In this document: piece by piece, positions 61,673 to 63,347 of the stretch
Numbering within the stretch: position 1 is the stretch's first letter
Layout of the letters: every line of letters starts with the position of its first letter
Source: Enterobacteriaceae endosymbiont of Donacia tomentosa
GTDB lineage: Bacteria > Pseudomonadota > Gammaproteobacteria > Enterobacterales > Enterobacteriaceae
NCBI RefSeq assembly: GCF_012571135.1
Contig: NZ_CP046216.1
Coordinates: forward strand, 306,108 to 370,107
Length of the DNA stretch: 64,000 bases
Reading direction: 5' to 3'
The notes under the pieces: model-generated
Told to the model about the DNA's origin: nothing
What the model saw: the letters and a program-made list of their open reading frames with translations, nothing else
Databases searched by the model: none
Translations under genes and position numbers: made by a program

Positions 61673-62314
61673 TTATCGAGTACCAAAAACTACAATTGTT
61701 TTTCCGTGAGCATAAATTAAATTACGATTTTTAAGAATTTTAAGTGTACGACCTACTGTTTCTCTAGAACAACCAACTATTTTACCTATTTCCTGTCTAG
61801 TAATTTTAATTTGCATTCCATCTGGATGGGTAATAGCTTCTGGGGACTTAGCTAAATTTAGTAATGTTTTAGAAATTCTGTGAGTAACATCTAAAAAAGC
61901 CAAGCTACTAATTTTTTTTGATAAAATTTGTAATCTATTAACAATTTGTGAAGAAATTTTCATTACTATATCATAATTAATTTTAATTAAATTATAAAAA
62001 TTTTTATAAGATATTTCTGCTAATTCACAATCCGTTTTTAGTTTAACTAATGTAATTTCTTTATAAGAATTATTAAAAATAGCTAACTCACCAAAAAAAT
62101 CACCAGCATTTAAATAATTTAATATAATTTCCTTATCATCTTTTTTGTTTTTAATTGAAATCACAACACTCCCTTTTAAAATATAATACAAATATTTTGT
62201 AACATCACCTTGTTTAATTAAAATTGTTTTAGAACAATATTTTTTAATATGACAATAAGATAAAAACCATTCTAAAGTTGAATCTTTTAAAGGGTTAAAA
62301 ATCATTAGTACCAT
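61673..62314 (-). CDS. crp: CRP-family regulator, CRP orthologue with altered cAMP site
   Basis: CRP is the cAMP-responsive global regulator in enterics. The 213-residue protein is clearly the orthologue: [12 protein letters not shown], the cyclic-nucleotide barrel and an almost unchanged helix-turn-helix, [19 protein letters not shown], with the DNA-contact Arg-Glu and Arg. By alignment with E. coli from memory, Arg82 and Ser83, which hold the cAMP phosphate, are Glu86 and Ile87 here, and Thr127 is Leu131; Glu72 and Ser128 remain. cAMP control is therefore probably lost. Two starts are possible: ATG 62314 (keeps the ancestral MVL but abuts AAGG) and ATG 62305 (9 bases from AAGG, 210 residues). 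It is the only DNA-binding regulator in the window. Confidence 0.94.
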
Positions 62315-62438: not shown

Positions 62439-63347
62439 ATGAATTATTTTGATATAAACAAACAAAAATATATAAGTAAATATAACAATAATCAATTGTC
62501 AAGTAAAATTAATATTTCTTTTGAAATTTTTCCTCCTAATGAAAATAAAAATAATTCTTTTATATTTTGGGAATTTATTAATACACTAATTAAATTTAAA
62601 CCTAAATTTATTTCAGTAACATATAAAAATACAAATTTTTCTTACAATAATAATACTTTTAATATCATCAAAAAAATTAAAAAAATTACTAATATAGAAT
62701 TAGTTCCTCATTTAACATGTATAAATATGAATAATGATCAGTTATATAATATTGCAAAAAAATATTGGGATATTGGAATTAGACATATAATAGCTTTAAG
62801 GGGTGATAAAAATTTTAATGCAAAAAATTTACAAAACAATAATAATATGATATATGCTTCTGATTTAGTTTATTTTTTAAAAAAAATAGCCAATTTTAAT
62901 ATTTCAGTTGCTGCATATCCTGAAATGCATCCAGAATCAAAAAATATTACAGAAGATCTTAATAATTTAAAACGAAAAATTGATGCAGGAGCAACAAAAG
63001 CCATTACTCAGTTTTTTTTTAATATAGAAACATATTTAAGGTTTAGGGATCTTTGTATTTTAAAAGGAATAAACATTAATATTATACCTGGTATTTTACC
63101 AATAATTAATTTAAAACAATTGAAAAAATTTATAAACATGACAAACATAACAATTCCCCCCCATATAGGGAATATATTTAGAAAAATACCACCACAAAAT
63201 ACAAATATACCTAAATTATTAGGAATAATTATTACTTTAAATATGATTCAAAAACTGAAAAGTGAGGGTGTATGTGATTTTCACTTTTACACTTTAAATC
63301 AACCTGATATCATCCATGCTATTTGTCTTTATTTAGATATTATTTAA
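62439..63347 (+). CDS. metF: 5,10-methylenetetrahydrofolate reductase
   Basis: MetF reduces methylene-THF to methyl-THF with NADH and FAD, feeding methyl groups to methionine synthesis. The 302 residues match E. coli (296). The catalytic Glu in ISFEIFPP, SVTYKNT, PHLTC, IIALRGD, SVAAYPEMHPES, ITQFFFNIETYLRF and the terminal DFHFYTLNQP are conserved. It stands alone between crp and the tRNA cluster, unlike its E. coli context. With asd it suggests a methionine route may be retained. Confidence 0.97.
   Translation: MNYFDINKQKYISKYNNNQLSSKINISFEIFPPNENKNNSFIFWEFINTLIKFKPKFISVTYKNTNFSYNNNTFNIIKKIKKITNIELVPHLTCINMNNDQLYNIAKKYWDIGIRHIIALRGDKNFNAKNLQNNNNMIYASDLVYFLKKIANFNISVAAYPEMHPESKNITEDLNNLKRKIDAGATKAITQFFFNIETYLRFRDLCILKGININIIPGILPIINLKQLKKFINMTNITIPPHIGNIFRKIPPQNTNIPKLLGIIITLNMIQKLKSEGVCDFHFYTLNQPDIIHAICLYLDII

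Follow-up and report, generated by a model that had tools for sequence, protein, structure and literature searches.

A full-length CRP orthologue with replaced cAMP contacts in the endosymbiont of Donacia tomentosa

CRP of the D. tomentosa symbiont and its closest described relatives

The laboratory CRP* mutants of Escherichia coli map to positions 53, 62, 72, 127, 140, 141, 142, 144, 148 and 195, and T127I, A144T and S62Y emerged in cya-deleted E. coli (PMC6603298). Substitutions T127L and T127I are recurrent among CRP* alleles, and a classic crp* strain carries the pair T127I and A144T (PMC2743635). These alleles arose in days and retain R82 and S83 (PMC6603298, PMC2743635). A more distant member of the CRP family, DdrI of Deinococcus radiodurans, is reported to bind CRP-type DNA without cAMP, and its Tyr113, the equivalent of Ser128, occupies the pocket in part (PMC11253593). 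DdrI is a remote paralogue in which Arg is kept at the R82 position and the Thr127-type residue is lost. The Plateumaris symbionts belong to the same genus as the symbiont studied here. Their CRPs keep R82, T127 and S128, carry S83T and are also changed at residue 141 (N, D or T), and a core-only cyaA is open in three of the five genomes.

The genome of the Enterobacteriaceae endosymbiont of Donacia tomentosa consists of a chromosome of 484,935 bases and a second contig of 6,762, and the window analyzed is a 64-kb stretch of the chromosome. The crp ORF lacks internal stops (Table 1), and its product matches NF008732, the curated CRP equivalog, with 304.2 bits (cut-off 266) over profile positions 8-214 of 214; the top PDB matches are CRP/CAP chains. 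Compared with E. coli CRP (catabolite activator protein), the symbiont protein is an orthologue of equal length and domain order that keeps the DNA contacts and activating region 1 (AR1), but differs by R82E, S83I, T127L, G141H and A144S and is encoded in a genome without cyaA. An earlier note on this DNA had described a full-length CRP orthologue with its DNA-binding helix kept and with Glu, Ile and Leu in place of R82, S83 and T127, and the alignments bear out each of these points.

Table 1. Features of the crp locus, in window coordinates. Residues follow E. coli numbering, transferred from an alignment with a free-living relative (G032).
Feature	Position	Strand	Basis
crp orthologue, full length	61673..62314	-	213 aa ORF; NF008732 equivalog
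Rewritten phosphate cassette Y-K-E-I-T (80-84; R82E, S83I)	62051..62065	-	alignment
Leu-Ser of the C-helix, part of the pocket (T127L; S128 retained)	61919..61924	-	alignment
C-D hinge and D-helix start T-H-R-I-S (T140, G141H, R142, I143, A144S); many CRP* mutations map here	61871..61885	-	alignment
AR1, AITHPDGMQ (156-164)	61811..61837	-	alignment
Recognition helix (180-193); R180, E181, R185, K188 kept	61724..61765	-	alignment, ORF coordinates

Elsewhere in the cAMP pocket, G71 and E72 are kept. The phosphate cassette aligns without gaps, K81-E82-I83-T84-L85 standing in the same frame as K81-R82-T83-A84-W85 in five Plateumaris-type sisters. Because the sister proteins read K-R-T-A-W opposite K-E-I-T-L, the frame is secure, and the alternative alignment with an Arg-Ser pair that the earlier note had allowed for is excluded. 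R82 is found in all 117 comparison CRPs. The NF008732 model name includes "cAMP-activated", a label that should not be carried over to this protein because its phosphate contacts R82 and S83 are E and I. Residues 169, 170, 180, 181, 185 and 188, which contact DNA, are identical to those of the free-living reference; the translations differ in the recognition helix by I186T, M189I, E191K, D192N and Q193R. M157I is the sole difference from the reference in AR1, the RNA-polymerase contact, and the AR2 residues are eroded. One AlphaFold2 model had a mean pLDDT of 68, with the cassette region (residues 76-87) below 50, and was set aside.

Several substitutions in these symbionts are identical to known CRP* alleles. 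The D. tomentosa symbiont carries T127L and has other residues at 62, 141 and 144 (S62N, G141H, A144S), together with D53N. Both Macroplea genomes combine T127I, A144T and S62Y, the Neohaemonia genome T127I and S62Y, and a further genome (G007) T127I and G141D; G141D is also present in the symbionts of P. braccata and P. consimilis and in G018. Exact matches to a listed CRP* residue are absent from 14 of the 24 genus CRPs, eight of the 24 have nothing from the CRP* list except other residues at 141 or 144, and position 141 is not Gly in any of the 24. Unlike in the laboratory alleles, the phosphate contacts themselves are replaced here, and the new cassette is conserved between species. The 127-128 pair is varied in Donacia-type CRPs (TF, TY, LS, TS, IC, AF). 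An aromatic residue (F or Y) replaces S128 in 13 of the 16, resembling DdrI at this position, whereas the D. tomentosa symbiont retains Ser at 128 and has Leu at 127.

Adenylate cyclase and the cAMP pocket in the genus and the family

In line with the loss of cAMP sensing proposed in the earlier note, the D. tomentosa symbiont genome has no match to PF01295 or PF12633 (cyaA) and none to PF00211 (class III cyclase), the three family models on which cyclase absence is defined here. Between trxA and dksA, the cyaA site in relatives, tblastn detected no remnant. The CRP alignment covered 24 genus genomes (22 loci, with G002 and G020 added), comprising five from Plateumaris hosts (G009, P. pusilla; G011, P. 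braccata; G013, P. rustica; G015, P. sericea; G019, P. consimilis), 16 from Donacia, including D. crassipes (G016) and Donacia piscatrix (G003; L109, 459,119 bases), and three from Haemoniini (Neohaemonia, G017; Macroplea, G020 and G002). CRP is full length in all 24. PF12633 and PF01295 matched the same four of these genomes. The symbionts of P. pusilla, P. sericea and P. consimilis have an open CyaA of 375-396 aa that aligns to residues 1-358 of the free-living CyaA ORF and retains the GS.SS...NSDFDIW stretch; the C-terminal half is missing. The cyaA of the P. braccata symbiont has two in-frame stops, and that of the P. rustica symbiont is a heavily decayed remnant without an HMM match, so that these sister species (loci L037 and L040) represent two stages of cyaA decay.

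Across the 24 genomes the state of the pocket matches the state of cyaA, although the genomes are related and are not 24 independent events. In all five Plateumaris genomes, where cyaA survives as an ORF or as a remnant, the pocket reads GERTTS (71, 72, 82, 83, 127, 128); T at 83 is seen in 19 of the 117 comparison CRPs as well. Where no cyaA match was found the pocket is altered in 19 of 19 genomes, the cyaA site having been checked for remnants in three of them (G000, G008, G017). E82-I83 is present in all 16 Donacia symbionts, and T72, S82, T83 and I127 in all three Haemoniini. In the published tree, Plateumaris is sister to the rest and Haemoniini is sister to Donacia (PMC7289800), so one cyaA loss could account for all 19.

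In the 295 family genomes surveyed, PF01295 gave a match in 209 and none in 86. Eighty of the 86 were tested for CRP, the other six being four members of the window genus, G069 (CRP present) and one more. Four had a full CRP, one a decayed CRP and 75 no match; CRP retention without a cyclase is therefore unusual, and outside the window genus a cyclase-free CRP is rare among the tested genomes. Loss of cyaA and loss of crp coincide in those 75. The four full CRPs are two with an intact pocket (G181, with Glu at 141; genome G141, with Ala at 140), one with Asn at 83 and Lys at 140 (G269), and one with Gln at 82, Gly at 83, Thr at 141 and Gly at 144 (G220).

In six other symbiont genera (G126, G031, G083, G085, G102, G094; L193-L197, L200), CyaA is reduced to the N-terminal catalytic part, with ORFs of about 400-470 aa that contain GS...SDLDIW. 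The C-terminal half of CyaA has been lost repeatedly while CRP retains its cAMP pocket, in these six genera and in Plateumaris symbionts (L036, L038, L039). Among symbionts of other genera that keep a core-only CyaA match, all 10 have an intact pocket, and so does G221, where cyaA is broken. For G301, G167 and G265, CyaA is called from HMM matches and open-frame lengths. In other symbiont genera (L087-L104), no part of the DNA-binding domain has changed more than residues 189-195, where the recognition helix ends, and these changes could alter DNA recognition there.

Constraint on the cassette, the hinge and the DNA-binding domain

YKEIT (80-84) shows zero changes in the 16 Donacia-type species, while positions 77, 78 and 79 show 4, 3 and 7 changes and the sensor-domain mean in the Donacia clade is 1.41 per position. 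Invariance alone is common in the clade, being seen at 57 of the 137 sensor positions; only 15 of these carry a residue that no control has, and five of the 15 are the consecutive positions 80-84. Changes were counted on the published topology (PMC7289800), which was imposed because a trpS/metF tree was weak at deep nodes, and the outcome is independent of topology. Pairwise dN/dS was estimated for 13 chosen pairs by the simple Nei-Gojobori method, which takes no account of the strong AT bias. The sensor domain gave values of 0.15-0.54 and the DNA-binding domain 0.00-0.14, the latter having the smaller value in every pair. Both the DNA-binding domain and the new cassette are constrained. With YKEIT frozen in the Donacia clade, we rejected plain decay; the Donacia pocket looks rebuilt rather than rotting. 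The earlier note had called the pocket broken, which, taken to mean degenerate, does not hold; its proposal that selection is retained on DNA binding and not on sensing stands for the stronger constraint on the DNA-binding domain, but the sensor domain is also under purifying selection.

Hinge residues T140, G141, R142 and A144 are invariant in the 117 comparison CRPs, of which 38 have a known cyclase status (37 positive; G069 negative) and the other 79 are named loci from a best-80 list that is biased towards query-like proteins. Residue 141 changed 9-10 times in the genus, the most of any position in the DNA-binding domain. For a set of sites (140, 141, 144) fixed only after the alignment was seen, the genus P value within the DNA-binding domain is 0.0004; with four, five and six sites it is 0.0021, 0.0018 and 0.0004. 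In 12 other symbiont genera the corresponding values are 0.014 (three sites), 0.052 (four), 0.018 (five) and 0.0027 (six). With all ten CRP* sites set against the whole protein, the genus gives a P value of 0.046 and the 12 other genera one of 0.215. Hinge change as a general mark of cyaA-eroding symbionts is weakened by a P value of 0.076 outside the genus, obtained when the three sites are compared with all control-invariant positions. Change at residue 141 alone does not track cAMP loss, because the residue also varies in cyaA-bearing Plateumaris CRPs. Since the hinge is altered in Plateumaris genomes that keep cyaA, hinge change may precede cyclase loss.

Readings of the altered CRP, its targets and its genomic context

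We consider the D. tomentosa symbiont protein to be probably a naturally evolved, cAMP-independent and permanently active CRP, and a constitutive regulator, as the earlier note had suggested, is its likeliest reading. In reed-beetle symbionts, adenylate cyclase would first have shrunk to the catalytic core and later disappeared, with CRP retained for its binding to DNA. Once cAMP was gone, selection would no longer have held R82 and S83, the contacts to its phosphate. CRP*-type changes in the C-helix, to L or I at 127 and to F or Y at 128, and in the hinge at 141 and 144 would hold the dimer in a form that binds DNA without ligand. The vacant adenine site may be occupied by an aromatic residue at 128 in many Donacia symbionts, and the preserved AR1 would still permit activation at a presumed set of targets. 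We give about even odds to the fuller account, a natural counterpart of the classic cya-deletion experiment, in which the cyclase was trimmed to its core and lost and the pocket was then rewritten, a stepwise conversion to a ligand-free regulator kept through host diversification, with YKEIT either locking the active state or reading a new signal.

Canonical CRP sites (TGTGA-N6-TCACA) are not in excess in the window (18 matches, 20.8 expected), and in 42 upstream regions from six species the site scores equal those of shifted-spacing and scrambled controls. The search for such sites suggested in the earlier note gave a mild excess genus-wide, the pattern matching 92 times and its reversed form 53 times. 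The first genus-wide match per genome lies inside an ORF in all 24 genomes, as do 11 of 12 further matches (one common to the 24-genome check). Consensus scans of the window, six syntenic windows and the genus yielded no usable regulon. FNR-type sites scored no better than the scrambled control, and the aligned region upstream of crp has no evident conserved palindrome.

These scans bear on two other explanations. If the sensor domain were a relic, with CRP no more than a repressor or roadblock that binds DNA, or nearing loss, and its pocket under relaxed selection, then the faster evolution of the sensor domain relative to the DNA-binding domain, the eroded AR2, the canonical sites not found in the window or the 42 upstream regions, and the many cyaA-less family genomes without CRP (75 of 80 tested) would all fit. 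We regard this as unlikely, given a full-length CRP in every genus genome through 75-100 million years of host diversification (PMC7289800), an invariant cassette, sensor-domain dN/dS values that stay under 0.6 in every one of the 13 pairs, and a kept AR1. A nucleoid-type protein binding many degenerate sites, the other possibility raised in the earlier note, is quite improbable. The eroded AR2, and the lack of discrete canonical sites in the regions examined alongside kept DNA contacts, are in its favor, and PMC6603298 refers to a nucleoid-like aspect of CRP in E. coli. The site scans, however, covered a minority of the genome's upstream regions, and a purely nucleoid-type CRP is not favored because AR1, which is needed for activation and not for DNA organization, is kept apart from M157I.

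A pocket re-tuned to another effector, such as a non-phosphate or cationic metabolite, would leave CRP a sensor. YKEIT is unchanged in 16 species, with no drift, and E72 beside E82 makes an acidic pocket, as this reading would have it; new CRP ligands are possible, since laboratory CRP A144T is activated by cytidine (PMC8497467). Pocket residues 127 and 128, however, vary widely among the same species, which is unexpected under a conserved ligand, and no candidate ligand is known, so we hold this reading to be rather unlikely. It is very improbable indeed that the altered pocket still binds cAMP supplied by the beetle, since neither phosphate contact is left and an acidic residue stands at one of the two positions, which is Arg throughout the comparison CRPs. 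Two points favor this reading. Animal cells produce cAMP. The symbionts are intracellular during part of their life cycle (PMC7289800).

A 2025 transcriptome study of these symbionts assigned the role of CRP by its E. coli function and counted it among four to five transcription factors (PMC12508126), in agreement with the few regulators supposed in the earlier note. For the Donacia symbiont examined here a self-made cAMP signal is unavailable, which bears on the role assumed in that study; "cyaA" does not occur in its available text, nor "crp" in that of PMC7289800. A search of titles and abstract openings, covering few subscription journals, returned no cAMP-independent CRP from an insect symbiont. 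Disruption of cyaA or crp turns E. coli into an insect mutualist (PMC9352592), whereas the symbiont studied here dropped one half of the circuit (cyaA) and kept the other (crp). CRP is a textbook allosteric regulator, and here a multi-species natural series has lost the ligand and then the pocket with the DNA-binding output kept, so that the dismantling of allostery can be tested with a few orthologues in E. coli.

In the surroundings of the gene, metF (window 62439-63347) stands upstream of crp, an arrangement that Plateumaris-type genomes share; in other Donacia-type loci (L002-L012) a metF query had no match and a tRNA-like sequence adjoins crp. The D. tomentosa symbiont also encodes an FNR-like protein (L034:6567-7340, minus strand; G000:C1 about 78,566-79,339). 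This protein retains C-x2-C-x5-C and a later LCEIS cysteine, which we take to be probable Fe-S ligands, whereas CRP has lost its signal contacts.
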